Shown: positions 29,751 to 48,237 of the stretch, piece after piece | How the letters are laid out: each line of letters opens with the position of its first letter | Numbering within the stretch: the stretch's first letter is position 1 | NCBI RefSeq assembly: GCF_009674825.1 | Contig: NZ_WKJH01000024.1 | Span: 310,001-374,000, forward strand | DNA length: 64,000 nt | Direction of reading: 5' to 3' | From: Maribacter luteus | Lineage (GTDB): Bacteria; Bacteroidota; Bacteroidia; Flavobacteriales; Flavobacteriaceae | The notes under the pieces: model-generated | What the model was told of the DNA's origin: nothing | What the model saw: the letters and a program-made list of their open reading frames with translations, nothing else | Databases searched by the model: none | Position numbers and translations under genes: made by a program

Positions 29751-29753
29751 TTT

Positions 29754-29886
29754 TGGCTATTGGTTTTTGGCCATTGGCCATTGGCTACTGGCTACTGGCT
29801 ACTGGCTAATGGCTATTGGCTATTGGCTATTGGCTACTGGCTACTGGCTACTGGCTACTGGCTACTGGCTACTGGCTACTGGCTAC
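29754..29886 (+). repeat. Heptamer tandem array TGGCTAC/T, 19 units
   Basis: Nineteen consecutive 7-bp units. The first four are degenerate (TGGCTAT, TGGTTTT, TGGCCAT, TGGCCAT), then three TGGCTAC, one TGGCTAA, three TGGCTAT and eight perfect TGGCTAC. The array starts 3 bp after the TAA of the amidohydrolase gene. Sharp unit homogeneity at the right end implies recent slippage growth. The apparent reading frame through it (29760-29948) is an artefact of the repeat. Confidence 0.97.
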
Positions 29887-29964
29887 TAAAATTATTTTTT
29901 TTAATTCCAAGTGTAACATTATCACAAAAACTACTACTTATTAGGTAACAACTACCAACCAAGC

Positions 29965-30459
29965 GTGAACAAAAAACTGGAGCATCAATTTGTGACCGAA
30001 CTTGAGAACAATCAGAACATTGTTCATAAGGTCTGTACATTGTACACCAATGACAAACATTCGCACAATGACCTGTTCCAAGAAATAACGATACAGCTAT
30101 GGAAGGCCTATCCAAAATTCAGGGGAGAATCGAAATTCAGTACATGGATGTACAGGGTTGCCCTGAACACGGCCATAACGCTATACCGAAAATCAAAAAA
30201 AAGAATACGTACACAGGATTATGACTCGGTCATTTACAAAATAACGGCCAATGAATATGATCCACGTGAAGAAGAGCAACTAAAGCTCATGTATGCCGCG
30301 GTAAAACAACTGGGAGATATTGAAAAAGCTTTAGTTTTCCTTTATCTGGAAGATAAGGATTATCGGGAAATTGCCGAAACACTGGGAATTTCCGAAGTAA
30401 ATGCAAGAGTGAAGATGAACCGGATAAAAAAGAAATTAAGAACCATATTGAATCCTTGA
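29965..30459 (+). CDS. ECF-type RNA polymerase sigma factor
   Basis: This 164-residue sigma-70 family protein starts with GTG (29965). Region 2 is visible as HNDLFQEITIQLWKAYPKF followed by FSTWMYRVALNTAI. Region 4 is EKALVFLYLEDKDYREIAETLGISEVNARVKMNRIKKKL, a standard helix-turn-helix. It is followed after 6 bp by a membrane protein on the same strand, the usual position of a partner or anti-sigma protein in Bacteroidota. The heptamer array ends about 80 bp upstream, so its promoter lies in or just after the repeat. Confidence 0.92.
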   Translation: MNKKLEHQFVTELENNQNIVHKVCTLYTNDKHSHNDLFQEITIQLWKAYPKFRGESKFSTWMYRVALNTAITLYRKSKKRIRTQDYDSVIYKITANEYDPREEEQLKLMYAAVKQLGDIEKALVFLYLEDKDYREIAETLGISEVNARVKMNRIKKKLRTILNP

Positions 30460-30465
30460 CGATAT

Positions 30466-31116
30466 ATGATTGACGAACTAGATTTATTAAAAAAAGATTG
30501 GCAGAAAAGGGACGAACACCTTCCTAAATTGTCATTTGATCAAATACATAGTATGATTTGGAAGAAATCTTCCTCAATCGTTCGTTGGATTTTGATCATC
30601 AGTATATTGGAATTTACACTGCCCCATTTACTATACCTGATACCATCGTTCAACAAGAATATGGAGATTTACGATAAATTGGGATTGCACAATTGGATCA
30701 TTGGGATTACCATATTTTCCTATGGAGTGGCTTTTTATTTCCTTTTTCAATTCTATAGAAGGTACAAGGAAATATGTGTGTTGGACAGTGCGAAAAGTTT
30801 AATGAAAAAGATTATACGAACACGAAGAACCGTAAAACACTATATCATCTACTCTTTGTCCATGATAATGGTTATCGTTATTCTTATGATTATTGGTGTT
30901 TATTTAAATGACGACATATTTTCAACCTTCAGTGGATTAAAGGATAAGGCACAAAATGTATCCATAGAAAAAATAAAAATAAGCCTCATGATCGGAATGG
31001 GCATTATGGGAATTGTTCTAACAGCAGTGATGGGCGGAATCTACTTTTTACTCTACGGATTGTTATTACGCAAGCTCAAAAGGAATTATAACGAACTGAA
31101 ACAATTGGAAGTTTAG
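30466..31116 (+). CDS. Membrane protein paired with the ECF sigma factor
   Basis: This 216-residue protein has a cytoplasmic N-terminus (MIDELDLLKKDWQKRDEHLPKLS). Four predicted membrane segments are near residues 42-62, 78-96, 126-146 and 168-196. The N-terminal 'DLLKKDW...IWKKSSSIVRWI' pattern recurs in Flavobacteriaceae proteins encoded right after sigma factors. It probably acts as an anti-sigma or signalling partner; no zinc-binding anti-sigma motif is visible. Its 3' end overlaps the convergent plsC gene by 4 bp. Confidence 0.75.
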   Translation: MIDELDLLKKDWQKRDEHLPKLSFDQIHSMIWKKSSSIVRWILIISILEFTLPHLLYLIPSFNKNMEIYDKLGLHNWIIGITIFSYGVAFYFLFQFYRRYKEICVLDSAKSLMKKIIRTRRTVKHYIIYSLSMIMVIVILMIIGVYLNDDIFSTFSGLKDKAQNVSIEKIKISLMIGMGIMGIVLTAVMGGIYFLLYGLLLRKLKRNYNELKQLEV

Positions 31117-31928
31117 ATTTTCTTACTATTACGAAACCTACGAAGTTCATTCTCTTCTTCCAAGGCCAATAGGTCTTTTTGGGAAATCACTTTTAAGAAT
31201 GAAGGATGTTGCTCTATGGCGTATTCCAGCTTCTCAATAATCGCATCGAACGACTCGTTTTCATAATCAATATCCAATGGTTCTTTGATAACCATATTCT
31301 GAAGAATACCTTTTTTCTTTACCCGAAGTCCTTTTTTATCAAAAGATCGCCTAAAACCATCAATGACAACAGGCACAACTACCGGTTTGTATTTTTTAAT
31401 GATATGGGCCGTACCTTTTCGAAGCGGTTTCCAAGGTGTAGTAGTGCCTTGGGGAAAGGTAATTACCCAGCCATCGTTCAAAGCCTTACCTATATTTGAG
31501 ATATCGCTCATCTTAACCTGGCGTTTCACATCTTTTCCTTCGGAACGCCAAGTACGCTCAACACTGATCGATCCCGCATAGGCGAAAATCTTGGTCAAAA
31601 GACTTTTCTTCATGGTCTCGGCAGCGGCCACATAATAAACGTTCAGTTTAGGGTTCCACAGATAACCAACATTTTTAAGGGTGTCTTCACGACCACTTAA
31701 ACTCGCATTGAATACATGGAACATGGCAACCACATCGGCAAAATAGGTTTGATGGTTACTTACAAAAAGTACATTTTTATCCGGTAGATTTCGGATAATT
31801 TCAGAGCCTTCAATCTCTAAAGTATTAAAGCCCTTATAACGCTGATGGGTGAATACACCCAAGATACGTATCAACCATCTTTTTATAAAAAGGATGTGTC
31901 CAAATGGATTTTTTTTGAATAGACCCAT
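31113..31928 (-). CDS. plsC: 1-acyl-sn-glycerol-3-phosphate acyltransferase family protein
   Basis: This 271-residue membrane-associated acyltransferase has the HX4D catalytic motif in VSNHQTYFADV (residues about 56-66) and the phosphate-binding FPQGTTTPWKPLRKGTA block near residue 155, where FPEGTR is usual. The family transfers an acyl chain to lysophosphatidate in phospholipid synthesis. EGT is replaced by QGT. This occurs in a Bacteroidota subgroup that may act on another acceptor, so the exact substrate is open. It is 24 bp upstream of nothing on its strand except the Nudix gene, with which it probably forms an operon. Confidence 0.85.
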   Translation of the reverse strand: MGLFKKNPFGHILFIKRWLIRILGVFTHQRYKGFNTLEIEGSEIIRNLPDKNVLFVSNHQTYFADVVAMFHVFNASLSGREDTLKNVGYLWNPKLNVYYVAAAETMKKSLLTKIFAYAGSISVERTWRSEGKDVKRQVKMSDISNIGKALNDGWVITFPQGTTTPWKPLRKGTAHIIKKYKPVVVPVVIDGFRRSFDKKGLRVKKKGILQNMVIKEPLDIDYENESFDAIIEKLEYAIEQHPSFLKVISQKDLLALEEENELRRFRNSKKI

Positions 31929-31952
31929 AAAGGCAAAGCTACAAAATAAGCC

Positions 31953-32594
31953 TTATAAAACCTGCTTCAAAAGCTCCTTGATTTCATTCAGCATCATTGC
32001 CGTTGCCCCCCAAACCGTGTAACCATTTAATTTAAAGGCGGGTACCTCCATATTTTTCGCATAGGAAGTCGATAATTTTTGTGTAAAGACCTTGCCGTCA
32101 TCCATGAAATCTACCAAAGGCACCTCTATCAATGCCTCAACTTCAGATTCCTGCATAACAAAAGGACTAGGATTTTCCATAAGTCCCATAAACGGTTTTA
32201 CCTCAAAATTACTGGGTGGAATATAGATTTCACTCAACGATTTGATAATCGAGATCCTTTCTGGCGGCACCCCTACTTCTTCATAAGTTTCGCGCAACGC
32301 GGTATGTAAAATATCAGGGTCTTCTTTTTCCGACTTGCCCCCCGGGAATCCTATTTGATTCGAATGTACACCCTTATAGGTCTTTCGGAGTATCAACAAT
32401 AAATTGGTAACACTTCTTGGATCTGGATAAAACAAAGCAAGGACAGCGGCCTTTCTTGCATTTTGTTTTTGGATATTACCGGTTTCCAATTCTTTCAATC
32501 GTATGGAAGGAGCCATTTTATAATGCGAAGCACTGCCCGGTAAGGGCAGATTTTTTATTTTTGAACTACGTAAGGCAAAATCATCAAAATTCAT
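31953..32594 (-). CDS. Nudix hydrolase, CoA pyrophosphatase type
   Basis: This 213-residue protein starts at MNFDDFALRSSKIKNLPLPG. The reading frame extends to a TTG at 32603, but the ATG at 32592-32594 fits the family. The Nudix box is GFPGGKSEKEDPDILHTALRETYEEVGV, shown here as GGKSEKEDPDILHTALRE and TYEEVGV, preceded by the UPF0035-type LLILRKTYKGVHSNQIGFPGG. Such enzymes split CoA into phosphopantetheine and 3',5'-ADP. Its ATG shares two bases with the ATG of the divergent cyclophilin gene (CATG at 32592-32595), so each promoter must lie inside the other coding region. Confidence 0.88.
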   Translation of the reverse strand: MNFDDFALRSSKIKNLPLPGSASHYKMAPSIRLKELETGNIQKQNARKAAVLALFYPDPRSVTNLLLILRKTYKGVHSNQIGFPGGKSEKEDPDILHTALRETYEEVGVPPERISIIKSLSEIYIPPSNFEVKPFMGLMENPSPFVMQESEVEALIEVPLVDFMDDGKVFTQKLSTSYAKNMEVPAFKLNGYTVWGATAMMLNEIKELLKQVL

Positions 32595-33324
32595 GGCTTT
32601 CAATAAATCCTATTACATTACAATATTACTACTTATATTTTTTTCTTCCTGTAAAGAGGAACCGAAGACCACTCCGAAAAGTGAACAACCGGTTTCAGAA
32701 GTGAAAGATTCCGTTTTGATAAATGAAAAAACAGAGATAGAAGAACAAGAAGAAGAAGAAGAAGAAGAACCTTTTAAACTCACGGAAGAGAATGCTATTG
32801 ACTTCTTTTATAATTACAATAAGACATTGAAAGATGATAAGGTGAAAATAACCACTAGTTTGGGAAGTTTCACCGTTCAACTCTATGACAATGTTCCTTA
32901 CCATAAGGCCAACTTTATTTACTTGACCAAAAAAGGTTATTTCAACAATACCCAGTTTCACCGGGTGGTCAAGAATTTCATTATTCAAGGTGGTAACTCG
33001 GACGATAAAGCCACGGCCGATAAACGAGGTGCTATCGGTAGGTACTTATTACCTCCGGATGCAAAAAAAGGATACAAACATCATCGTGGAACTATTTCCA
33101 TGCCCAGCAGTGAAGTTGATAACCCACATATGTTGGCCTCTCCTTATGAATTCTTTATCGTGGTCACCAAACCGGGATCCTATCATTTAGATGGAGAATA
33201 TACTCCGTTCGGGAAAGTCATCGAGGGTATGGATGTTGTTGACAAGATAAATGTGCAACGTGTTGGCAAAGGCGATTGGCCATTTCAGAACATTTATATT
33301 ACCAAGGCGGAAGTCGTTAAGTAG
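32593..33324 (+). CDS. Lipoprotein peptidyl-prolyl cis-trans isomerase (cyclophilin)
   Basis: This 243-residue protein has a lipoprotein signal with cysteine at residue 20 (FFSSC). An acidic spacer of Glu repeats follows at about 50-60. The cyclophilin domain covers about 75-240: VKITTSLGSFTVQLYDNVPYHKANF, shown in part, FHRVVKNFIIQGGN with the catalytic Arg, and PSSEVDNPHMLASPYEFFIVV in place of the usual MAR/FxF core. Trp of the cyclosporin pocket is absent. It is a periplasmic or outer-membrane folding catalyst. A perfect 14-unit heptamer repeat begins on the last base of its stop codon. Confidence 0.88.
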   Translation: MAFNKSYYITILLLIFFSSCKEEPKTTPKSEQPVSEVKDSVLINEKTEIEEQEEEEEEEPFKLTEENAIDFFYNYNKTLKDDKVKITTSLGSFTVQLYDNVPYHKANFIYLTKKGYFNNTQFHRVVKNFIIQGGNSDDKATADKRGAIGRYLLPPDAKKGYKHHRGTISMPSSEVDNPHMLASPYEFFIVVTKPGSYHLDGEYTPFGKVIEGMDVVDKINVQRVGKGDWPFQNIYITKAEVVK

Positions 33325-33421
33325 GCTCTTGGCTCTTGGCTCTTGGCTCTTGGCTCTTGGCTCTTGGCTCTTGGCTCTTGGCTCTTGGCTCTTGGCTCTT
33401 GGCTCTTGGCTCTTGGCTCTT
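33324..33421 (+). repeat. Heptamer tandem array GGCTCTT, 14 perfect units
   Basis: Fourteen identical copies of GGCTCTT run without a single mismatch. The first base of the array is the final G of the TAG stop codon of the cyclophilin gene. It shares the TGGCT core with the array at 29754, but the other bases differ. Confidence 0.98.
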
Positions 33422-33471
33422 AAGAAATAACAAAAACTAGTACTTCCTCATTGATTTTTGGAATTTGTTTC

Positions 33472-33513
33472 TTCACAATTTATTGTTCACTGCCTACTGC
33501 TCACTGTCTACTT
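33472..33513 (-). repeat. Degenerate heptamer array ending on a stop codon
   Basis: Plus-strand units TTCACAA, TTTATTG, TTCACTG, CCTACTG, CTCACTG and TCTACTT keep strict 7-base periodicity. On the minus strand the array starts at the TAG stop codon of the TRIC gene (33508-33510), mirroring the arrangement at 33324 on the other side of the same intergenic region. Confidence 0.8.
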
Positions 33514-34119
33514 CTTCACCTTATAAATATTCGGCAAGGCAATATGGAACTTTACGGCCAATAGACGAAAAACGATTACTATCAAAATAGCAACGATATA
33601 GGAATAAGCCGAATTAATGGGCGTCATGGCCAATAAAAAATAGGACACTCCCCCTAAAATACAGGCAGTAGCGTAAATCTCCTTTTGGAATATTACGGGA
33701 ATCTCATTACAAAGAATATCCCGGATCACCCCACCGAACGATGCGGTTATAGTACCAAGTACAATACATATAGGAGGAGCCAATTCCGCTTCAAGCCCCT
33801 TTTCTATGCCTACCATAGTAAAAAGCCCTATCCCGATGGTATCGAACAAAAAGAGTGTTTTCCTGAGATATTTCAATTGATTCACGAACAATATCGCTAA
33901 AATAACTGCCCCTAATATCGTAAAGAGATAAACGGGATTCAGCATCCAGAAAACCGGTTTATTCCCTATCAACACATCACGTAGGGTTCCTCCTCCGGTT
34001 GCCGTTACAAAGGCAATGATAAGTACCCCGAACAAATCGAGTTTCTTTTCCATGGCAACCAATACGCCGGAAATCGCGAAAGCTGCCGCTCCTAATATAT
34101 CAATAATCAAATAAAGCAT
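33508..34119 (-). CDS. TRIC-like / UPF0126 membrane channel protein
   Basis: This 203-residue protein has six or seven hydrophobic segments. The two UPF0126 repeats are visible: AAFAISGVLVAMEKKLDLFG with GGGTLRDVLIG, and GIGLFTMVGIEKGLE with ASFGGVIRDILCNEIP. GxGGxxRD is the ion-binding signature shared with prokaryotic trimeric intracellular cation channels, which conduct K+ or Na+. It is an isolated gene. Convergent with the cyclophilin gene, and the space between them is filled by two heptamer arrays. Confidence 0.9.
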   Translation of the reverse strand: MLYLIIDILGAAAFAISGVLVAMEKKLDLFGVLIIAFVTATGGGTLRDVLIGNKPVFWMLNPVYLFTILGAVILAILFVNQLKYLRKTLFLFDTIGIGLFTMVGIEKGLEAELAPPICIVLGTITASFGGVIRDILCNEIPVIFQKEIYATACILGGVSYFLLAMTPINSAYSYIVAILIVIVFRLLAVKFHIALPNIYKVKK

Positions 34120-34241
34120 CGAAAAATTATTTGGTGCGCAAAAATATATAATTGCACCGAACTATTTTAAAAAATTTTCAGGTGTGAAAACGACAACTTT
34201 TTGAAGGAAAAACAAGGATTGATCAAATGCTCTTTTAACCC

Positions 34242-34958
34242 CTAAAGTCGCTGTGTATAATAACTATAATCCTTAATCACCTTGTCCACAAAATCAAATG
34301 GTTTTTCATCCGTGGTTATATGGGTGACTTTTTTGATCTGCTCACTTAAAGACAAGATAATCTGGTGATTACCATTACGACGAGCCTGTTCATACAAATC
34401 CTTAATGGTCTGCATTTCCCGGTCCTTGAAAACGGTTACCTGTGCATACTTGGGTATATAATCTTCTGGCAGTTCCCTTAACAAGGTATCCTTAATCCCA
34501 ACGCGTATTTTCTCGCTTATTACGGTTGTGCCGGCAGCGATATCACCAATACGCTGGCCTTTTCCACGTATTAAAATCGTTAAGACCGCCAATCCGCCGG
34601 AAGTAAGTGCCACATCAATGATACGAAGTATCCAACGAATGAAATAACTTGAAAAACCAGGTTTGGACCCATCCGATTTTACAACACGAATCTTCATTAA
34701 ACCCTTACCGATGGTCTTTCCGTCCATAAAGGTTTCCATCAATACATAGTATAAAAATGCCGGCAACCCCAAAAGCATATAAATGGCCCACATATCCTCG
34801 AGATCAATATCCATCGAAATCAATAACCAAATCATTAAGATGGTATACGCCAAGATCACAAAACTATCGATGAGGTAGGCCAACATACGATCACCTAAGT
34901 GAGCGGTATTTTGACTGATGCTTATATTTTGGGCAGTTTCTATTTGAAATTGTTCCAT
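34242..34958 (-). CDS. RDD family membrane protein
   Basis: This 238-residue protein has an RDD domain (residues about 15-150) with LGDRMLAYLIDSFVILAYTI at the start, where R and D are conserved, three membrane segments, and KTIGKGLMKIRVVKSDGSKPG between segments 2 and 3. A soluble C-terminal part of about 80 residues follows. Function is unknown; some RDD proteins act as Na+/H+ or compatible-solute transporters. It is divergent from the SpoIIM-DUF58 operon, a neighbourhood conserved across the phylum, so a role with that membrane complex is likely. Confidence 0.88.
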   Translation of the reverse strand: MEQFQIETAQNISISQNTAHLGDRMLAYLIDSFVILAYTILMIWLLISMDIDLEDMWAIYMLLGLPAFLYYVLMETFMDGKTIGKGLMKIRVVKSDGSKPGFSSYFIRWILRIIDVALTSGGLAVLTILIRGKGQRIGDIAAGTTVISEKIRVGIKDTLLRELPEDYIPKYAQVTVFKDREMQTIKDLYEQARRNGNHQIILSLSEQIKKVTHITTDEKPFDFVDKVIKDYSYYTQRL

Positions 34959-34990
34959 ATTTTAGTTTCTTTGGGTAAAACCCGGTATAA

Positions 34991-35953
34991 ATGCGCGAGG
35001 CCGCCTTTGTTAAGCAAAATAAAGATAAATGGGTAACTTTTGAAAATGCCCTTTCGAACAAAACGAAGATAGCACCCGATGTATTGTCCGATCTATATAT
35101 TGAAATTACCGATCACCTGAGTTACGCCAAAACTTTTTATGCAGGAAGTAATACGGAGTTTTATCTAAACACCTTGGCATCACAGGCCCACCAAAAAATC
35201 TATAAAACAAAAAAAGAGCCTAAAAACCGAATTGTGGAATTTTGGAAGACCGAATTCCCTACCCTGTTCTATTACCACCAAAGAGAACTTCTGATCGCTT
35301 TCCTTGTCTTTACCTTCTTTTGTTTGGTCGGAGCTTTTTCCGCCGCCAATGAGGGCGATTTTGTACGTTCGATCCTCGGGGACAGTTATGTGAACATGAC
35401 CCTCAATAATATTGACAAGGGCGACCCCATGGCCGTATACAAACAAATGGGGGAATTCAATATGTTCATGGGTATTACCATAAACAATATCAAAGTGGCC
35501 TTAATGGCATTTGTCTATGGCATTATGTTGGGCATAGGAACGTTATGGATCATGATGCAAAACGGGATAATGCTGGGTAGTTTTCAATATTTCTTTTATG
35601 AAAAAGGATTGCTTTGGGAATCTGCCCGTACCATTTGGATTCACGGAACCATTGAAATCTCGGTCATCATCATTGCCGGTTGTGCCGGATTGGTACTCGC
35701 CAACGGTATGCTTTTCCCTGGTACGTACACCCGATTGGAATCGTTTAAAAGAGGAGTGAAGAACGGACTTAAAATAATGCTCAGTACCATTCCCTTTTTT
35801 ATCATCGCAGGATTTCTGGAAGGTTTCGTGACCCGCCATACCGAAATGCCCGATTGGTTGGCCATTATTATTATTACGGCTTCCTTAGCACTAATTTTAT
35901 TTTATTACGTTATATACCCATATCAATTACATTCAAAACCAAACCAAAAATGA
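34991..35953 (+). CDS. Stage II sporulation protein M (SpoIIM/DUF95)-like membrane protein
   Basis: This 320-residue protein has a soluble N-terminal part (1-100) and then a DUF95 membrane domain with about five or six segments. KVALMAFVYGIMLGIGTLWIMMQNGIMLG, shown as KVALMAFVYGIMLG and NGIMLGSFQYFF, and WIHGTIEISVIIIAGCAG are the family core; SpoIIM of Bacillus acts in engulfment. In non-sporulating Bacteroidota the gene is part of the MoxR-DUF58 cluster. It overlaps the next gene by 4 bp (ATGA at 35950-35953), so translation is coupled. Confidence 0.88.
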   Translation: MREAAFVKQNKDKWVTFENALSNKTKIAPDVLSDLYIEITDHLSYAKTFYAGSNTEFYLNTLASQAHQKIYKTKKEPKNRIVEFWKTEFPTLFYYHQRELLIAFLVFTFFCLVGAFSAANEGDFVRSILGDSYVNMTLNNIDKGDPMAVYKQMGEFNMFMGITINNIKVALMAFVYGIMLGIGTLWIMMQNGIMLGSFQYFFYEKGLLWESARTIWIHGTIEISVIIIAGCAGLVLANGMLFPGTYTRLESFKRGVKNGLKIMLSTIPFFIIAGFLEGFVTRHTEMPDWLAIIIITASLALILFYYVIYPYQLHSKPNQK

Positions 35954-36828
35954 ACCAATACATCCAATTTAAAAAACAACGTGAATTAGGAGAAATTTTA
36001 TCCGATACCTTTGCTTTTCTTCGTACAGAGTTCAAGCCTTTTATGACAACTTATTTCAAGATTGTCGCACCTTATTTGATCATACTTTTGATAGCCTTGG
36101 GTTTTTATCTCTATTCGTTTTCATCCATATTGGATTTTAACTCCACAAGTTCCAATGAATTATTTAGTGGAATTAGCATGATGGTAAGTGCTCTCGTTTT
36201 TATCGTCGCCATGATTTTGGTATATGCCGTTTCCCAATCCACGGTATTGCACTATATAAAATCCTATACCGAACTTCAGGGACAAACTGACTTTGACAAA
36301 ATAAAAAAAGAGGTATATGATACCCTCTGGAGCTTTATTGGCCTAGGAATTATAGTGGTATTATCGATAATGGTCGGATTCATATTCTGCTTTATACCCG
36401 GAATTTATCTGGCCGTACCACTTTCACTTTCATTCAGCATCATGATTTTCATGAACAAAAGTGTGGGAGAATCGTACAACTATGGTTTTACCCTAGTAAA
36501 GGATGAATGGTGGATCACCTTCGCTACCCTTTTCATAATTGGTATTATTGTCGGTATCGCAGGATATGCCTTTAATTTACCTGCGGTTATTTACCAATAT
36601 GCAAGTATGGGGATATTTTCGGGTGAAATGGACGCTACCTCCCTATCCGGCAATTTTGTGGATCCGGTTTATCTTATCCTCAATATGATAGGTACATTGG
36701 CGCAGATGCTTTTGAATATTATTTCTATAGTCGCTGGGGCATTTATCTTTTTCAATCTGAACGAGAAGAAAAACTTTACCGGCACTTTTGAACGTATTCA
36801 AAACCTAGGAAAAACCACGGAAGAATAA
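35950..36828 (+). CDS. Integral membrane protein of the SpoIIM-MoxR operon
   Basis: This 292-residue protein starts at MNQYIQFKKQRELGEILSDT on the ATG at 35950. The frame is open back to 35854, but that part lies inside the SpoIIM gene. It has six hydrophobic segments and the pattern FCFIPGIYLAVPLSLSFSIMIF, which resembles DUF975 or glycerophosphodiesterase membrane domains. Members occur at this exact operon position in many Flavobacteriaceae. The biochemical function is unknown. Confidence 0.78.
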   Translation: MNQYIQFKKQRELGEILSDTFAFLRTEFKPFMTTYFKIVAPYLIILLIALGFYLYSFSSILDFNSTSSNELFSGISMMVSALVFIVAMILVYAVSQSTVLHYIKSYTELQGQTDFDKIKKEVYDTLWSFIGLGIIVVLSIMVGFIFCFIPGIYLAVPLSLSFSIMIFMNKSVGESYNYGFTLVKDEWWITFATLFIIGIIVGIAGYAFNLPAVIYQYASMGIFSGEMDATSLSGNFVDPVYLILNMIGTLAQMLLNIISIVAGAFIFFNLNEKKNFTGTFERIQNLGKTTEE

Positions 36829-36850
36829 TTAAAAGGGGCAACCCGACACT

Positions 36851-39792: not shown

Positions 39793-39796
39793 TTCT

Positions 39797-41128: not shown

Positions 41129-41136
41129 TAGACTAT

Positions 41137-41613
41137 TCACGGAAGTTGAAGAATACGCTCTGCTTGTAGTGCAGAGGTAATATCATGGGATTCGGAAAGG
41201 GTGATATCAAAAAAATCCAGGTTCATGTTTCCCTTGGGTTTGTATGATTCCGCATAACAATTACAAGGTCTGTATTTACGTCTTTTCTTACTCTTTTTCA
41301 GAAAAAGATCCAACACCACGGCCGAAGCGACCCCTCCAAGTACGGTATATACAATATCATTATTGTCCCATACCCCATAATCCGCCTTATCAATTGCTTC
41401 TTTGGTAACTCCCGCTGCCAAGCTACTACCCACGGCACCTGCCCACATCCAATAAGGATTTCCATCGAACATATGGTGAGCCGTATAGCCGCCAACAGAC
41501 CCAATAACGAACCCCGCACCAAAATGTTTCGGTTTGTCTTCACTAATCGTTAGCTGGGCATTCATGGCCGTACTAAAACCGATGCACACTAAGATAAAAA
41601 GATACTTTTTCAT
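41137..41613 (-). CDS. YfiM-like secreted protein of unknown function
   Basis: This 158-residue protein has a signal peptide (1-19, ending MNA-Q). DKPKHFGAGFVIGSVGGY and AAGVTKEAIDKADYGVWDNNDI resemble the DKxxHFxxGxxIG / GxxKExxDxxD pattern of YfiM-type proteins, in which acidic and His residues may bind metal. A hydrophobic helix (about 88-100) and a basic stretch follow (KKSKKRRKYR). Two cysteines lie in CNCYAE. It is convergent with DUF58, with only 8 bp between the stop codons. Confidence 0.7.
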   Translation of the reverse strand: MKKYLFILVCIGFSTAMNAQLTISEDKPKHFGAGFVIGSVGGYTAHHMFDGNPYWMWAGAVGSSLAAGVTKEAIDKADYGVWDNNDIVYTVLGGVASAVVLDLFLKKSKKRRKYRPCNCYAESYKPKGNMNLDFFDITLSESHDITSALQAERILQLP

Positions 41614-41875
41614 AAGATAGTATTCAATCCGATAATGAATAAGTCCTATTCACTTCGGAAGTTCGCAAAATACCGGATTTAATATACAAACCCATATGGA
41701 TTCCCAGTTATTCGATATAAGACCATTTTTTCATTACAACTGACTAATCCTCAATTTTTATATTGATTTTTTATTCCATTCTAAAAAAATCATACCAAGG
41801 CACGCTATTCAAGTTAGTGAAAACAACAAAATCAAATCAAATTTCTATCTTCAAAAACATTAAACATTCAAGCAT

Positions 41876-43564
41876 ATGAATTCATACATTAGAACACTCC
41901 CCTATTTATTATTGTTTTTATTTTCAATAAACCTAATTTCCGCACAGACCTATGCAAAAAATGGCATGGTGGTTTCCTCGAACATGGAATCTAGTAAGGT
42001 AGGCCGGGCCATTCTTCAAAAAGGAGGCAATGCCATTGATGCCGCGGTCGCTACTGCTTTCTCACTAGCGGTAACCCTTCCATCTGCCGGTAATATCGGT
42101 GGCGGTGGTTTTATTGTTTATATGGATTCAAAGGGAAAAGCAACCACAATAGATTTTCGGGAAAAAGCGCCATTGGCCGCAACTAATGACATGTATCTTG
42201 ACAAAGAAGGGGAACTTATCAAGGGAATCAACCACAACACGGTAAAAGCGATCGGGGTTCCCGGCACGGTTGCCGGACTATACCTTGCCCACCGAAAATA
42301 TGGTAAACTCCCTTGGAAGGATCTGGTACAACCCGCTATCGATCAAGCAACAAACGGATTTACCTTCAATTGGTCACTTTTCAAGGCTGCAGAGTATTTT
42401 ACAAAAGAGGGTAATGACAATCGGTTTATGGATAACTATTTTAGAAATGAAAATGGCACCGTATTGCAACCTACCGAAAATTGGAAACAACCTCAACTGG
42501 CCAACACGTTGTCAATTATTCGGGAAAAAGGGAAAGATGGTTTCTATAAAGGGGAAGTTGCCAAGAAAATAGTACAATGGATGAAAGAGAACGAGGGTAT
42601 CATTACAAAAAAGGACCTTAAAAAATATGAAGCCATAGAACGAAAGCCCATGGAAGGCAGCTATAAGGGATATAAAATATATTCAATGCCACCACCTAGC
42701 TCCGGTGGGGTAGCCTTAATCGAAATGATGAATTTAATGGAACAAGCCGATTTCAAGGAGATTGAATTCAACTCAACCGCCTACGTTCATTTGCTTACCG
42801 AAGCCATGCGACGTACTTTCGCAGATCGGGCAGAACATTTAGGAGACCCCGATTTTAACCTTGACATGCCCTTGGAAAAACTCATCTCAAAAGAATTCGC
42901 AAAACAACGTTTTAATGGTATCGATATGACAAAGGCCTCAGTTAGTGATTCCACTAAATTCGGTCAATTATATGATGGTGAAAGCACCACCCACCTTTCG
43001 GTTTTGGATAAACACGGAAATGCAGTTTCCTTAACGTACACCTTAGAATATAGCTACGGATCAAAAATGGGTTCCGAAGAGCTGGGCTTTATCTTCAACA
43101 ATGAAATGGGTGATTTTAACCCCCAAGCCGGGATTACAAAAAGTAACGGTCAAATCGGTACGGCTCCAAATCTAGTAGCACCGGAAAAGAGAATGCTATC
43201 CAGTATGACCCCAACCATCGTAGCCAAAAACGACAAACCCTATTTGGTAATCGGTAGCCCCGGTGGGCGCACCATAATCAATACGGTTTTCCAAACCGTA
43301 TTCAATGTGCTGGAGTACAATATGCCTGTAAACAAAGCCATTGAAGCCCTTAAAATACATCATCAGTGGTTGCCCGATGTTATCCGTTATGAAAAACACC
43401 TGCTTTCCCCCGATACCAAAAAGGCCCTTGAAAACATGGGACACACTTTAGAGCCCAGGGAAAATCTAGGAGCTTTAATGGGCATTACTTGGGACGATGA
43501 AAAAAAAGTGATGACCGGTGCCTCGGATTCTTCCCGCCCTGATGGTGGAGCTGCAGGATATTGA
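41876..43564 (+). CDS. ggt: Gamma-glutamyltransferase
   Basis: This 562-residue periplasmic enzyme cleaves gamma-glutamyl bonds of glutathione and related peptides. It has a signal peptide (1-24, ending ISA-Q). Autoprocessing should occur before Thr371 in ESTTHLSVLDKHGNAVSLTY; the first Thr becomes the nucleophile of the small subunit. The oxyanion and substrate residues appear in GSPGGRTIINTVFQ, with SSGGVALIEMMN in the large subunit. The length is normal and all key residues are present. It is monocistronic. Confidence 0.95.
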   Translation: MNSYIRTLPYLLLFLFSINLISAQTYAKNGMVVSSNMESSKVGRAILQKGGNAIDAAVATAFSLAVTLPSAGNIGGGGFIVYMDSKGKATTIDFREKAPLAATNDMYLDKEGELIKGINHNTVKAIGVPGTVAGLYLAHRKYGKLPWKDLVQPAIDQATNGFTFNWSLFKAAEYFTKEGNDNRFMDNYFRNENGTVLQPTENWKQPQLANTLSIIREKGKDGFYKGEVAKKIVQWMKENEGIITKKDLKKYEAIERKPMEGSYKGYKIYSMPPPSSGGVALIEMMNLMEQADFKEIEFNSTAYVHLLTEAMRRTFADRAEHLGDPDFNLDMPLEKLISKEFAKQRFNGIDMTKASVSDSTKFGQLYDGESTTHLSVLDKHGNAVSLTYTLEYSYGSKMGSEELGFIFNNEMGDFNPQAGITKSNGQIGTAPNLVAPEKRMLSSMTPTIVAKNDKPYLVIGSPGGRTIINTVFQTVFNVLEYNMPVNKAIEALKIHHQWLPDVIRYEKHLLSPDTKKALENMGHTLEPRENLGALMGITWDDEKKVMTGASDSSRPDGGAAGY

Positions 43565-43666
43565 CCTTAAAAACTGACAATATCCCTAATCGAAACTTAT
43601 GTCCTACCAAAAAGGTAGAACATTCTAAAACGGAATATTACTTACCTTTAATACAAATTTTAACTT

Positions 43667-44362
43667 ATGAGGAAAATTGGAATGATCGGGGGTATTAGTT
43701 GGGAGTCAACACAAGTCTATTACCAAATCATCAATACGAAAGTGAAAGAAGCCTTGGGGGGCTACCATTCTGCCAAGTGCCTACTGGAATCGGTGGATTT
43801 TGCTGAAATTGAAAAGCTTCAAATGGAAGATGATTGGGAAGCTTTGGATCAATATATGATCAATGCGGCCCAGAATCTGGAAAATGGCAAAGCTGAACTT
43901 ATCCTCATTTGTGCCAATACCATGCATTTGTGTAGTGATGCCATCATAAAGAATACAGCCATTCCACTTTTACATATAGCAAGGGAAACTGGTAAAGCCA
44001 TAAAGGCATCGGGCCAAAAAAAAGTGTTGTTATTGGGAACGAGGTTCACAATGGAAAAAGATTTTTTTAAAAACATACTAACCGATGAATTCGGAATCGA
44101 GGTAGTGATTCCCAGTAAAGAAGATATTACCACCGTACATTCCGTAATTTATAAAGAACTTGTACATGGCCTGCTGTTACCCGAATCCAAATCGGCTTAC
44201 CAAAACATAATCAAAAAGGCAGCAAAAGAAGGTGCAGAAGGTGTTATTTTGGGCTGTACGGAAATTCCTTTATTAATCGGCCGCAATGATGTTGAAATCC
44301 CGGTTTTCGACACGACAAGCATACATGCCGAAGCTGCCGTGGCGTTTGCCTTAAAAGCTTAG
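43667..44362 (+). CDS. Aspartate/glutamate racemase family amino-acid racemase
   Basis: This 231-residue protein of the Asp/Glu racemase fold has IGMIGGISWESTQVYYQIIN at the N-terminus. The two catalytic cysteines are in ICANTMH (about residue 81) and GCTEIPLL (about residue 201). This is the YgeA/RacX branch, with broad amino-acid substrate range. It is cytoplasmic, 102 bp downstream of ggt. Decayed heptamer arrays begin about 60 bp after the stop codon. Confidence 0.9.
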   Translation: MRKIGMIGGISWESTQVYYQIINTKVKEALGGYHSAKCLLESVDFAEIEKLQMEDDWEALDQYMINAAQNLENGKAELILICANTMHLCSDAIIKNTAIPLLHIARETGKAIKASGQKKVLLLGTRFTMEKDFFKNILTDEFGIEVVIPSKEDITTVHSVIYKELVHGLLLPESKSAYQNIIKKAAKEGAEGVILGCTEIPLLIGRNDVEIPVFDTTSIHAEAAVAFALKA

Positions 44363-44421
44363 GAAAAATTACAGCTTGTATTTACTTCAAAAAATAATTT
44401 GATGTTAGATTGATTTCGGAT

Positions 44422-44532
44422 TACTGAACACTGAATACGTTTCATTATTCACTATCATTATTTAACCGGCTTAATTTTGCTGGCATTCAGCATCCAGCAT
44501 CCTTCAACAACCTACTAACAATCTACTTCTGG
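44422..44532 (+). repeat. Two blocks of decayed heptamer repeats
   Basis: Block 1 (44422-44456): TACTGAA, CACTGAA, TACGTTT, CATTATT, CACTATC. Block 2 (44484-44532): CATTCAG, CATCCAG, CATCCTT, CAACAAC, CTACTAA, CAATCTA, CTTCTGG. The 7-base register is preserved although the units have diverged. The region lies downstream of the racemase gene. Confidence 0.65.
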
Positions 44533-44654
44533 TATCGATCATCATGATCTGATAATCAATTAGGAATATTCATTTGTGCTAAGCAAAAGCCAAAACCAAA
44601 CACTAAAACCTATCAACCACTAAAAGTCTATGGAACTCTAAATCCAAAAACCCT

Positions 44655-44888
44655 TTAGTCTGATTTTGGCTTTGCCACAATTGATTTAAAATCATGCCTC
44701 ATCATAAAGACAAACAAAATTGCGGATATTGCAAAAACAAATTTTCCTATGGTACAAAAAGTACATTCAAAATAGGTGGTTGTGCATCCTGCATAATTGC
44801 TTATACAACCAACGAGAATCATAATAAAGTAATCGACCATCACGAAAACCGATAATAAGAACAACGATTTTAAAGCTAAATCTTTCAT
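44655..44888 (-). CDS. Small cysteine-rich membrane protein
   Basis: This 77-residue protein starts at MKDLALKSLFLLSVFVMVDY. The reading frame is open to 45032, but the upstream part overlaps the operator and has no membrane character. It has two membrane helices (about 5-27 and 45-66) and between them CISNYAGCTTTYFECTFC, four cysteines including a CxxC on the loop, which could bind metal or form disulfides. I do not recognise a family. It is transcribed away from the Crp/Fnr gene, with a 20-bp palindrome between them. That suggests control by that regulator. Confidence 0.6.
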   Translation of the reverse strand: MKDLALKSLFLLSVFVMVDYFIMILVGCISNYAGCTTTYFECTFCTIGKFVFAISAILFVFMMRHDFKSIVAKPKSD

Positions 44889-45005
44889 GGCTATACTTTT
44901 TAAGTTTAATGCAACTCCTTTAATAAAGGTAGTACACAATAAACCAATGGAAAAGAGATCATAACCATCATATCTTCTGGCATTTAATGGTATTTTTAAC
45001 ACACA

Positions 45006-45025
45006 ATGATGTAATTTTACATCAT
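45006..45025. promoter_or_regulatory. 20-bp palindromic operator between the membrane protein and crp/fnr genes
   Basis: ATGATGTAA-TT-TTACATCAT has perfect 9-bp arms with a 2-base centre. It lies 43 bp before the Crp/Fnr ATG and 118 bp before the small membrane protein ATG. The sequence differs from the GTRAC sites before dps and osmC, so it may be an autoregulatory site or a site for another factor. Confidence 0.65.
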
Positions 45026-45067
45026 ATGCCAAAAAAAATAAAAAGCTAGAATATCCAATTTATACCG

Positions 45068-45763
45068 ATGCCAGATTTTTTAACCCAAAAAAGTAATCTT
45101 AACAATGAATTCCTAAATGCCCAAGAGTGTTTAAACGCTTTATCGGAGAACGAAAAACAAGAATTGATAAGTAGTAAGACCGATATTGATTTTGAAGCTG
45201 GAGAGCATATCGTTAAAAGAGGTCTTTTGGCCAATAACGTACTCTATTTAACAGAAGGCCTTGTAAAACTGGAACTCTTCAATGATTCCAAACCTTCTAC
45301 CATAGCCATTTTAGAACCACATTCATTTATTGGGATCGTCTGTTGTTTCGCTTTTAAAAAAATAGATTTTACAGCGACGGCCCTAACAGATGCCAAAGTC
45401 AGTTTCATTGGTATGGATGTTTTTGAACGTTTCATTAAAAGTAATGGCGACTTTGCCTTGAACCTCATTAAACATATGTCGGGCATCAGCAATCAATTAT
45501 TGCATCGCCTTACCATTTTATCCCAAAAAAATGTTGATGGCGCCCTTTCTTTCATTTTGTTGGATTTTAGGTCCATTTTCAGAAGCGATGAATTTGAACT
45601 GCCCATGTCTAGGATTGAATTGGCAAATATGCTGGATTATTCCAAGGAAAGTGTGATCAACACCCTTTCAAAATTTAACAAAGAAGGAATCGTCAAGGTA
45701 AATGGCAGAAAGGTCAAAATCATAAAACGAAAGAATTTAGCACAGATTTGCAAATTGGGATAA
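45068..45763 (+). CDS. Crp/Fnr family transcriptional regulator
   Basis: This 231-residue protein has a cyclic-nucleotide-binding-like beta-roll (about 35-125) and a C-terminal winged helix (about 165-225, MSRIELANMLDYSKESVINTLSKF). It has four cysteines (positions about 22, 98, 99 and 228), not the N-terminal four-cysteine cluster of true FNR, so an Fe-S sensor is not evident. The nucleotide-binding RxS signature is not seen either. It is adjacent to osmC, whose promoter carries a 5-4-5 inverted repeat suited to this family. Confidence 0.9.
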   Translation: MPDFLTQKSNLNNEFLNAQECLNALSENEKQELISSKTDIDFEAGEHIVKRGLLANNVLYLTEGLVKLELFNDSKPSTIAILEPHSFIGIVCCFAFKKIDFTATALTDAKVSFIGMDVFERFIKSNGDFALNLIKHMSGISNQLLHRLTILSQKNVDGALSFILLDFRSIFRSDEFELPMSRIELANMLDYSKESVINTLSKFNKEGIVKVNGRKVKIIKRKNLAQICKLG

Positions 45764-45821
45764 GCCCTTTTTAAAACTATCATCTCTAAAAACATCCCAT
45801 TTTATCAATAACCTCTGTAAC

Positions 45822-45864
45822 GTGACCAATGTTACAAAACAGTTCGGCTTTTGATTTTATCTTG
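45822..45864 (+). promoter_or_regulatory. Crp/Fnr-type operator and promoter of osmC
   Basis: GTGAC-CAAT-GTTAC at 45822-45835 matches the dps site in 12 of 14 bases; an overlapping TGTAAC/GTTACA pair widens the symmetry (45816-45836). The candidate -7 box TATCTTG (45858-45864) starts 29.5 bp from the operator centre, exactly as at dps. Confidence 0.65.
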
Positions 45865-45910
45865 CAGTATATTAATCATAGCTGCATATAAAAATCTAAA
45901 AAACCGAACT

Positions 45911-46375
45911 ATGGAAGCACATTATTTTAATGTAGACGTAAATTGGAAGAAGGAACGTTTGGGAGAAATGTGTTCCCCAGAATTGAACCTTGAAACGAAT
46001 AACTGTGTTGAAGTGGCCACCCCGCCCGAATTCCCTAAAGGTATACCGGGCAAATGGTCTCCGGAACATTTATTTACGGCAGCGGTGAACAGTTGTTTAA
46101 TGACGACCTTTTTGGCCATCGCTGAAAATTCCAAATTAGAATTTTTAGATTTTAAGTGTAAGTCAAAAGGAAAATTGGACCGGATCGAAGGTAAGTTTTT
46201 AATGACCGAAATCATCTTGGAACCCACCGTGACCATCTCCGATGGAAAATATAAAGAAAAGGCTGAAAAAATCTTACTAAAATCGGAAGCGGCCTGTTTG
46301 ATCTCCAATTCCATAAAATCAAAAATAACAATGGTTCCCACGATTCTGGTTCAGCAAAGCCATCCAATAGGATAA
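45911..46375 (+). CDS. OsmC/Ohr family protein
   Basis: This 154-residue protein starts at MEAHYFNVDVNWKKERLGEM. An in-frame upstream ATG at 45851 lies inside the promoter. The OsmC fold is shown by SPEHLFTAAVNSCLMTTFLAIAE (catalytic cysteine in the central helix) and CLISNSIKSKI with the second cysteine. Members of the family reduce organic hydroperoxides; the YhfA/OsmC-like subgroup fits best. It lies 147 bp after the Crp/Fnr gene, with its own promoter. Confidence 0.9.
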   Translation: MEAHYFNVDVNWKKERLGEMCSPELNLETNNCVEVATPPEFPKGIPGKWSPEHLFTAAVNSCLMTTFLAIAENSKLEFLDFKCKSKGKLDRIEGKFLMTEIILEPTVTISDGKYKEKAEKILLKSEAACLISNSIKSKITMVPTILVQQSHPIG

Positions 46376-46654
46376 AGGGCTTCAAATGAAATAAAAAATC
46401 ATAACAGGGTCGCGCAAAGACAAAACACCGACCCTACCGAACCATCACGCCAGAAAGTACATCTAGGATACTAAAAAGAGGTAATTAACCATAATTGTGG
46501 TTTTCTGCATATTCCAAAAATAGAGAGGTCGGCACCTTTAAATTTCCCCTCTTAAATTAGTTATTGATAACGTTGCCTTACGGTACCAAATTTCGTAACT
46601 TCCTGTTTAATTTTTACTGACTTAAACTAATCAATTTTAAACCCTTGGAATACC

Positions 46655-47671
46655 ATGAAAAACAAGACAAAAAACTTGGCGATCGTATGTAGCGCAATCT
46701 TTCTGTTTTCAACAACTTTTGGATGTAAAGACAAAGAAACCAAACCAACTGAGGCGAACGCCACTGAAGTGCAGGCCGAACCCGAGCCCGACTTTAAAAT
46801 TTCCTTGGCCCAATGGTCATTGCACAGAACTTTTTTTGGAACTGAAAATATTGACTGGAAAAATTTCACTAAAACCTTGATGGAATCACCAGATGATTTA
46901 TTGAAAGGTAAAGACCCAATGGAATTTCCTGCTATAGCAGCAAGTTATGGTATAAATTCGATTGAATTGGTCAACACCTTTTATTTTAGCAAGGTAGATG
47001 ACATGGCTTATTGGACAGAGTTTAAGAAAAAATGTGATGAAGCCGGTGTAAGTGTTGGGTTGATTATGTGTGATGCCTTGGGTAATCTGGGAGATGACGA
47101 TCCCGAAAAGCTATTGGCAGCTGTTGAAAAGCACTATAAATGGATAGATATCGCCAAGTTCTTGGGAGCACATTCCATCCGGGTTAATGCAGCTGGTGAG
47201 GGTACCCCCGAAGAAGTGGCAAAAAGTGCTGTGAACGGATTAACGGCTTTGGCTAAATATGCCGCTACCAAAGACATCAATGTTATTGTAGAAAACCATG
47301 GTGGCCATTCTTCCAATGGGGCATGGTTAAGTGGTATCATGAAAACAATAAATATGGATAATGTGGGTACTTTACCCGATTTCGGTAATTTCTGTATTGA
47401 ACGTGGCCCAGAAGGTTGTGCTAAAGAATATGACCGTTATGTAGGTATCAAAGAACTTATGCCATACGCCAAAGGTGTAAGCGCAAAATCGCATGAATTT
47501 GATGAGGATGGCAATGAAATTCATTCCGATTTTCTTAAAATCATGAAAATCGTAAAAGAATCAGGATTCAAAGGCTACGTAGGCATAGAATATGAAGGAT
47601 CTGAACTTTCAGAAGATGAAGGAATAAAAGCCACAAAAGCCCTTCTCGAAAAAGTTTTTGCACAATTGTAA
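46655..47671 (+). CDS. Lipoprotein sugar-phosphate isomerase/epimerase-like TIM barrel
   Basis: This 338-residue protein has a lipoprotein signal with cysteine at 24 (TFGC), then a spacer rich in Glu, Thr and Ala (to about 45). The xylose-isomerase-like (AP endonuclease family 2) barrel has metal-ligand residues in IELVNTFYF, VIVENHGGHS, DFGNFC and IEYEGSE. Secreted members are common in Bacteroidota and mostly uncharacterised; keto-sugar or inositol derivatives are typical substrates of the superfamily. It is an isolated gene with its own terminator. Confidence 0.83.
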   Translation: MKNKTKNLAIVCSAIFLFSTTFGCKDKETKPTEANATEVQAEPEPDFKISLAQWSLHRTFFGTENIDWKNFTKTLMESPDDLLKGKDPMEFPAIAASYGINSIELVNTFYFSKVDDMAYWTEFKKKCDEAGVSVGLIMCDALGNLGDDDPEKLLAAVEKHYKWIDIAKFLGAHSIRVNAAGEGTPEEVAKSAVNGLTALAKYAATKDINVIVENHGGHSSNGAWLSGIMKTINMDNVGTLPDFGNFCIERGPEGCAKEYDRYVGIKELMPYAKGVSAKSHEFDEDGNEIHSDFLKIMKIVKESGFKGYVGIEYEGSELSEDEGIKATKALLEKVFAQL

Positions 47672-47738
47672 AATTGCTTCGGACAACACGACATTTTTGG
47701 CATTCATTTCTAAGTGAAGGCTATGGATTACAAAAAAG

Positions 47739-47767
47739 GAGGACATAAAAATGTCCTCATTTTTTTT
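47739..47767 (+). terminator. Intrinsic terminator after the isomerase-like gene
   Basis: GAGGACAT (47739-47746) pairs with ATGTCCTC (47751-47758) around AAAA, followed by A and eight T. It is 68 bp past the stop codon. Confidence 0.92.
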
Positions 47768-47835
47768 ACCCCTGACAATATCTGTCACAATCACCTCTAT
47801 CTTTACGCCATAGACAACCTTTAAAATCACAAAAA

Positions 47836-48207
47836 ATGAAAAATGCAATCAATTGGTTTGAGATTCCCGTAACAGATTATGACAGGGCCAAAAAATTCTA
47901 CACTACAGTACTCGCAATCGACATTACCGACATGCACATGCCAGAGGTAAAATATGGTATGTTTCCGTACGATAATGACAATAATGGTGTGGGCGGAGGC
48001 CTTGTTCAAATGGCAGGGGCAACCCCTTCAGCTAACGGTATCACCATTTATCTAAATGGCGGTGACGATTTAAGCGATCCTTTGTCTCGTGTAGAAGCGG
48101 CTGGTGGCAAAGTGATCATGCCCAAGACCGATATCGGCGAAAACGGATATATGGCGCAATTGCTGGATACCGAAGGGAATAGAGTGGCCTTCCACTCGTG
48201 GAATTAA
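47836..48207 (+). CDS. VOC family protein (glyoxalase-like)
   Basis: This 123-residue protein has MKNAINWFEIPVTDYDRAKKFY at the start and GENGYMAQLLDTEGNRVAFHSW at the end, the pattern of the YaeR/27-kDa-antigen-type vicinal oxygen chelate proteins. The metal-binding Glu and His positions are partly present. It precedes a WYL regulator by 51 bp on the same strand, and the two may be functionally linked. A short heptamer array begins three bases after the stop codon. Confidence 0.87.
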   Translation: MKNAINWFEIPVTDYDRAKKFYTTVLAIDITDMHMPEVKYGMFPYDNDNNGVGGGLVQMAGATPSANGITIYLNGGDDLSDPLSRVEAAGGKVIMPKTDIGENGYMAQLLDTEGNRVAFHSWN

Positions 48208-48209
48208 CC

Positions 48210-48237
48210 AGTAAAAAGTGGATAGTGGATTTTATAC
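48210..48237 (+). repeat. Short decayed heptamer array after the VOC stop codon
   Basis: Units AGTAAAA, AGTGGAT, AGTGGAT and TTTATAC keep 7-base register, starting 3 bp after the TAA at 48205-48207. It is short and would not be significant alone, but it repeats the position of the arrays at 29754, 33324 and 33472. Confidence 0.5.

Follow-up and report, generated by a model that had tools for sequence, protein, structure and literature searches.

Tandem arrays of 7-bp units directly follow the stop codons of genes in the 64,000-nucleotide stretch of Maribacter luteus DNA analysed here (the window; positions 310,001 to 374,000 of contig NZ_WKJH01000024.1, or C24:310001-374000 of the 4.65 Mb draft assembly G000, held in 30 contigs; G, L and C numbers denote genomes, loci and contigs). 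These arrays are heptanucleotide tandem repeats of the long simple sequence repeat (LSSR) or short tandemly repeated repetitive (STRR) kind: their unit exceeds chance, they are non-coding, and copy numbers differ by whole units between close relatives. A 7-nt period, a position at gene ends, the occupation of the same sites by differing units and a difference in copy number between close species were all observed. At two gene ends the place is shared among Maribacter genomes while the repeated word differs from species to species, which suggests continuing copying and not a conserved signal.

Arrays in the window

Two strong 7-bp arrays were found in the window by Tandem Repeats Finder (TRF), and a separate lag scan agrees. 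Array 1 (29753-29887, plus strand) consists of about 19 heptads of TTGGCTA/TGGCTAC located between a gene of an M20-family peptidase (28311-29750) and a sigma-70 family gene, and the TAA stop of the peptidase gene (29748-29750, plus strand) lies 2 nt before it. Array 2 (33324-33421, plus strand) holds 14 copies of GGCTCTT with 100% matches. The TAG stop (33322-33324) of a cyclophilin-type peptidyl-prolyl isomerase gene (32593-33324, plus strand) shares its final base with the first G of this array and so stands inside the first unit (TAGGCTC TTGGCTC ...). Array 3 (33476-33510, minus strand), built of degenerate TRRNCAG heptads, starts at the TAG stop of its own gene, that of a Gly_transporter-family membrane protein (33508-34119, minus strand) convergent with the cyclophilin gene; starting from the stop at 33510, its minus-strand sequence is TAGACAG TGAGCAG TAGGCAG TGAACAA TAAATTG. 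It is absent from the TRF list at score 40. All distances to gene ends rest on gene calls made with a simple script of our own.

Reading of the sequence alone had named five array places, all but one of them at or within three bases of a stop. Those at 29754 and 33324 hold as strong arrays and the one at 33472 as a degenerate array, and all three lie at or close to stops. The remaining two do not exceed chance. One is a two-unit ACTGAAC/ACTGAAT tract (44421-44437, plus strand), which begins about 60 nt past a stop, and the other a possible three-unit remnant of the TRRNCAG shape (TAACCAG TAAAAAG TGGATAG; 48205-48232, plus strand) after the stop of a glyoxalase-family gene. Their best lag-7 scores, 7.8 at 44422 and 7.5 at 48210, are equalled or exceeded downstream of 1.8% and 2.0% of 559 stops in this genome. 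With 60 genes called, the window should contain roughly one tract of this quality, and the two are not counted as findings. The observation of heptamer arrays in the window is accordingly partly confirmed. A scan of 29600-33700 for promoters and terminators gave no more than was obtained in shuffled sequence.

Excess of period seven

The question of whether seven is special was addressed in a sample of the window genome composed of 40 stretches and the window (864 kb), two of the stretches having been chosen for holding arrays. Non-coding lag-7 segments with a score of at least 12 numbered 9, compared with 0.3 in dinucleotide shuffles; period 14 gave 9 against 0.1, period 10 gave 2 against 0.2, and the other periods from 4 to 13 gave at most 2. 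When the array-chosen stretches were removed and the window kept, 7 segments were left at period 7, none at periods 4-6 and 8-9, then 2, 1, 1 and 1 at periods 10-13, 6 at period 14, 2 at period 15 and 3 at period 19. Lag-7 segments of the set were non-coding in 7 cases and coding in none; one Maribacter array (L292) was found inside a called open reading frame (ORF). Period 7, together with 14, is the one clear period excess in this genome.

Among 392 Bacteroidota genomes, 219 contain at least one ACTGNNNACTGNNNACTG, a pattern with 12 fixed bases of which a single match is often due to chance (an estimated 0.4 per genome). Both spacings were searched in 118 genomes; a match was found at spacing 7 in 65 of them and at spacing 8 in 22, and at least five matches in 29 against 4. 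The claim that the unit length is seven holds as the sole clear excess in the non-coding DNA of the window genome and is qualified by a few other genomes rich in octamers with an ACTG core. In two of these (G033, G123), octamer arrays of ACTGACAT type occur in many places, with the ACTG core at spacing 8 and not 7. As a separate observation, repeats of the backward pattern GTCANNN far outnumber those of ACTGNNN in G302, G112, G132, G146 and G189, and other lineages may use another core.

Position at stop codons

Array sites in Maribacter were taken from strand-blind listings of an ACTG pattern in seven genomes (for G001, G003 and G010 they are among the matches listed; G011 was not listed). 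Of the 39 loci read, five (L290, L293, L297, L300, L313) hold no array at the threshold, and the other 34 hold 47 arrays; with the L292 array dropped, 39 sites were retained, 37 of them with both neighbour genes. Tracts in rRNA/tRNA surroundings were left out (by eye in the window genome, and assumed elsewhere from identical sequence). De-duplication was done by hand, partially for a set of 22 sites, in which two orthologous pairs were kept, and more fully for a set of 20.

Neighbour genes of the 37 sites are in tandem in 25 cases, convergent in 12 and divergent in none, whereas divergent spacers make up 22% of the spacer bases in the sample of the window genome; in other genera, divergent pairs flank 3 of 44 regions. 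Before de-duplication, 29 of the 37 sites lie at most 16 nt from a stop, compared with 12.7 under random placement in the same spacer (maximum 21 in 20,000 placements). In the looser set, 17 of 22 sites are near a stop against 7.4, and after the removal of orthologous duplicates and of stops supplied by the arrays themselves, 15 of 20 remain so against 6.3 (maximum 13 in 20,000). Starts lie equally close in 4 of the 20 sites, with 4.1 expected. The preference for stops proposed from the window alone is thereby extended beyond it, and the combination of one unit length, a gene-end position and many unit sequences recurs in several Maribacter genomes with the placement control in hand. Register lock with the stop codon was also considered as a sign of seeding. 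It fell from 22/55 to 18/47 after partial de-duplication (P = 4.3e-5) and to 9/37 (P = 0.07) when stops supplied by an array, roughly half of those in register, were taken out along with the duplicates; it was not used.

Same gene ends, different units

Of the 11 Maribacter genomes with a full orthologue of the cyclophilin gene, the window genome among them, 6 bear an array at the 3′ end of this gene (G007, a twelfth genome, has a fragment only and was not counted). The window genome has the unit GGCTCTT, G003 CAGTNNN/CAATNNN and G011 TAGACGG, and a weaker tract is present in G002. In G001 and G004, units of TTCACTG/CTTACTG/TTCGCTN extend over 0.9-1.0 kb and are organised in higher-order units of roughly 165-200 bp. 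No array was seen at this gene end in G005, G006, G008 and G010, and G009 shows only TAGACGGTAGAC. In the latter, one TAGACGG followed by TAGAC stands where G011 has five followed by TAGAC (1.7 and 5.7 copies), the unit containing the stop codon; a comparison of copy numbers, as had been suggested, hence gives a whole-unit difference, at the level of close species. As the coding sequence of the cyclophilin gene is 96% identical between G009 and G011 and 95% between G001 and G004, the differences between their arrays indicate fast turnover. The same convergent gene pair is found in 76 named relatives. Of these, five have 7-periodic segments and a spacer of 95-991 bp; the 71 that lack such segments have a median spacer length of 16 bp.

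The end of the radical-SAM gene behaves likewise. Arrays with differing units were found there by eye in 7 of 12 Maribacter genomes (G000, G001, G003, G004, G009, G010, G011), two-unit traces in G007 and G008, and no array in G002, G005 and G006. The last 13 residues of the protein are identical in 11 of the 12 genomes (G010 was read for the last five), and the arrays stand at the native stop. The claim that orthologous gene ends bear differing units in different species is thus borne out at both places.

About 3.5 kb before the cyclophilin array, G001 (C27:116.2-117.6k) and G004 (C3:109.5-110.4k) carry arrays of 1,350 and 841 bp in the place of window array 1, and a close orthologue of the M20 peptidase gene is missing there; these could be arrays at rearranged junctions. 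A short ACTGATAACTGTTAACTG tract common to four species (G000:C7:3424, G001:C17:2233, G003:C6:3358, G004:C2:3330 and C16:3330) is conserved, unlike the other arrays, and has tRNA/rRNA-like surroundings in the window genome (L031, by eye).

Outward polarity of the CAGT core

Beyond the position after stops, a sharper rule was observed, in which CAGT is read outward from coding edges. The set of sites was gathered mainly by an ACTG pattern, so that the core is partly a matter of choice while its strand is not. On the outward strand, 71 stop edges with arrays show CAGT in 56 cases and ACTG in 11, with 4 unclear; partial de-duplication leaves 48, 11 and 4 (P = 1.2e-6). In 61 regions of at most 450 bp, the left half contains 186 CAGT and 33 ACTG and the right half 31 CAGT and 207 ACTG. 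Both arms, CAGT on the left and ACTG on the right, are present in 14 of the 61 regions, and the reverse order in none. Start edges are often CAGT-outward too (L336, L340, L352, L354, L357, L360, L362), and ordinary spacers and stops show no CAGT bias and no hidden degenerate signal. Exceptions are both strong arrays of the window, which break the rule, the largest Maribacter arrays (L298, L305, L306) and L296. Two further readings were rejected. Fold-back copying between the arms does not fit, as two arms from a single region resemble each other no more than arms from different regions do. A purine-rich strand leaving the gene is seen on average (mean 0.548, compared with 0.501 at ordinary stops), but window arrays 1 and 2 are opposite (0.42 and 0.28).

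Relation to known repeats

Stop-proximal heptamer arrays are a known kind of repeat, already published for Xanthomonas. The GGGNATC heptamers of Xanthomonas and Nostoc (Rehm et al. 2015, PMC4692102) form perfect or heterogeneous 7-bp arrays that, after genes, lie mostly within 50 bp of the stop and on the coding strand, some of them overlapping the stop, and before genes mostly on the non-coding strand. In Xanthomonas, both the stop proximity and the outward polarity are as observed here. On the other hand, the GGGNATC unit is G-rich and quadruplex-forming, while the window units TTGGCTA, TGGCTAC and GGCTCTT contain no GGG, and in Maribacter the unit changes between species at one gene end. 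The TAACTGA direct repeats of Beggiatoaceae, cyanobacteria and some Bacteroidetes (MacGregor 2015, PMC4679880) stand mostly just before start codons, with one reverse set directly after a stop; spacers of close relatives are array-free, and insertions and deletions occur in 7-nt steps. TAACTGA is not the window unit, though ACTGATA of G040 is its rotation, and that paper treats one heptamer mostly before starts, whereas here a wider ACTGNNN family is found, in Maribacter mostly at stops.

From the same two papers we infer that the outward polarity extends to Xanthomonas, to 'Maribeggiatoa' (TAACTGA before starts) and to Flexibacter (the reverse set after a stop). It is not followed in Nostoc (PMC4692102), in Microcystis, where 6 of 22 intergenic sets are forward and 8 reverse to a start, or in 13 of 14 'Maribeggiatoa' sets overlapping the end of the upstream gene (PMC4679880). 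Heptanucleotides are the commonest longer unit among LSSRs, for which slippage was proposed (Mrazek et al. 2007, as cited in PMC4679880 and PMC4692102). To the shared unit length and proposed slippage of the LSSR and STRR families, our study adds the analysis of gene ends, polarity and orthologous sites. In the papers compared, the dominance of heptamers among the longer bacterial tandem repeats is left unanswered.

Phase-variation repeats switch the expression of surface genes; the genes preceding the window arrays encode a peptidase and a cyclophilin. The cyanobacterial STRR sequences are likewise heptanucleotide repeats and are comparable. Repetitive extragenic palindromic (REP) sequences and REPINs, associated with a RAYT transposase, resemble the arrays in being extragenic, near gene ends and in inverted arrangement, and differ in that no hairpin is common to the regions studied here. 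A RAYT/Y1 transposase as the maker of the arrays was rejected, no Y1 match being present in the array-bearing genomes G000 and G010; G006 (68% complete) has five Y1 transposases and no ACTG arrays. By eye, ACTG heptads in G040 adjoin a recurring REP-like sequence at L346, L347 and L348 (GTCATTTCGACGAAAGGAGAAATCTC / GAGATTCCTCAATCG...CGGAATGAC). No known RNA family was found in eight sources, and no account of the Maribacter arrays or of the outward-CAGT rule was found in a search of open-access papers.

Origin and maintenance of the arrays

In regard to the mechanism, we lean towards the view that these are heptanucleotide arrays of the known type, formed by 7-nt slippage, bounded by coding sequence and turning over fast. 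Where a short match recurs at a distance of 7 nt close to a coding edge, the replicating strand could slip by 7 nt, and repeated slips, combined with larger tandem duplications, would lengthen and remodel the array; repeats of a higher order, about 165-200 bp long, are indeed present. Growth would be tolerated only where 7-nt insertions are harmless, frameshift excluding coding sequence and the side towards the following gene's promoter being mostly closed, and the array would then fill the space from the stop codon outward, in agreement with the observed position. Variant units may sweep through arrays kept at fixed gene ends, either because the arrays persist there or because they are repeatedly born. 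Neighbouring units are 58-94% identical in G002, G009, G010, G040 and G236, as slippage predicts, and 34-43% identical in G000, G001 and G004.

Several observations weigh against slippage as the full explanation. It explains neither the outward CAGT polarity nor the choice of seven. Samples of 20 stretches each from G003, G001 and G005 (1.2 Mb) yielded 1, 0 and 0 period-7 segments, with no excess over other periods, from which it follows that arrays are few and local. Similarly, 80 named loci around the cyclophilin gene, an anchor picked because of the window array, contain 31 period-7 segments, 27 of which are in four Maribacter loci; the remaining 76 loci have 4 at period 7 compared with 1, 1, 2, 1 and 1 at periods 6, 8, 9, 10 and 11. 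Octamer-rich genomes exist at spacing 8 (G033, G123, G064, G124). The radical-SAM array of G003 (L384) came to light through orthology, without use of the pattern. All 13 of its 13 units retain CAGT and positions 5-7 vary, a fixed core with three free bases that slippage alone leaves unexplained and that does not correspond to equal decay of all seven positions. Finally, in G003, G087 and G200 neighbouring units are 0-11% identical and no more alike than random ones; units two apart are somewhat more alike than random in G087 and G200. The sequence-only reading had envisaged a single process creating arrays at gene ends followed by their decay; the core kept in L384 and the neighbours in these three genomes do not favour the decay, and the interpretation as a whole is partly supported.

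The polarity would be accounted for directly if a sequence-specific agent, an enzyme or a nucleic-acid-binding factor, made or maintained CAGT at 7-nt steps outward, with slippage being secondary. We regard such an agent as unlikely, yet as deserving consideration, as the CAGT-outward stop edges, the two-armed regions without a single reversed one and the start edges that follow the same rule all speak for it, together with a core common to genomes of several families and fixed in L384, which was not selected by pattern. However, sampling by the ACTG pattern makes the core partly chosen, the strong window arrays as well as L298, L305 and L306 break the rule, and GTCANNN is as common or far commoner in some genomes. 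Furthermore, Y1 (RAYT-like) transposases are absent from the array-bearing G000 and G010, arms sharing a region are not more similar to each other than to foreign arms, and Microcystis and nearly all of the overlapping 'Maribeggiatoa' sets are off-polarity. A broader form of this proposal, in which one agent lays CAGTNNN heptads outward from both gene edges across Bacteroidota, and possibly in Beggiatoaceae and Xanthomonas, with a fixed core, three varying bases, a limited number of recurrent gene ends and TAACTGA as one spelling, appears to us slightly less likely still; the published data on Microcystis and Nostoc do not fit and lowered our estimate by a small step. If it held without pattern bias, the outward polarity would tie together heptamer families that have been published separately, and a specific mechanism would be needed.

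It could also be supposed that selection keeps the arrays as functional 3′-end elements, serving in termination, at the mRNA end, or as stops in three frames, given that 7 is not a multiple of 3. This we consider improbable. The position at stops agrees with it, as does a stop spelled by TNN in 335 of 639 CAGTNNN units, but on the coding strand there is no stop triplet in array 2 and just one in array 1, and stops in three frames were rejected as a general role. Hairpins give a mixed picture: terminator-like ones stand beside some arrays (L332, L339; by eye), L335, L332 and L341 form strong ones (DNA folding z of -12.5 for L335 and -6.7 for L341, and -2.8 for L360), 17 of 35 regions of other genera have z below -2 (RNA folding), and array 1 folds better than its shuffles (z -3.7, DNA; -8.1 for its spacer, RNA), whereas array 2 does not (z 0.6, DNA) and Maribacter array regions fold like shuffles (median z 0.1; 7 of 26 below -2). 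The lack of a 7-periodic segment at the cyclophilin end in 71 of 76 relatives, the ordinary stops devoid of such a signal and the arrays that abut starts are further points against a function. An association with stops by construction, whereby arrays contain stops and reading frames running into them end there, is very improbable as a general explanation. It is true for a minority of sites, as shown by the array-supplied half of in-register stops and the weakening of the register once they are removed, and it is largely refuted by the 15 of 20 sites that remain near a stop when such stops are dropped and by the cyclophilin and radical-SAM genes, which use the stop of array-free Maribacter and have the same or nearly the same C-terminus. 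To chance or an assembly artefact we give scarcely any credence: the copy number of long arrays may be wrong in a 30-contig draft, but G236, G040 and G114, in which one contig is about the whole genome, carry arrays as well, the reversed-pattern control gave zero in the window genome, and the shuffle controls stand at 9 against 0.3.

Maribacter offers a natural series, in which the same gene ends occur with and without arrays and with differing units over 71 to 96% identity of the cyclophilin gene, and which lets birth, spread and selection be separated.

Other repeats

Two further repeats were recorded. A 69-bp tandem repeat was found by TRF within a long ORF of the window (56863-57035), perhaps encoding leucine-rich repeats. 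Outside the window, a TGGCT array (L088 10362-10431; G000:C29:115367) lies, as judged by eye, in an apparent remnant of a methyltransferase gene.

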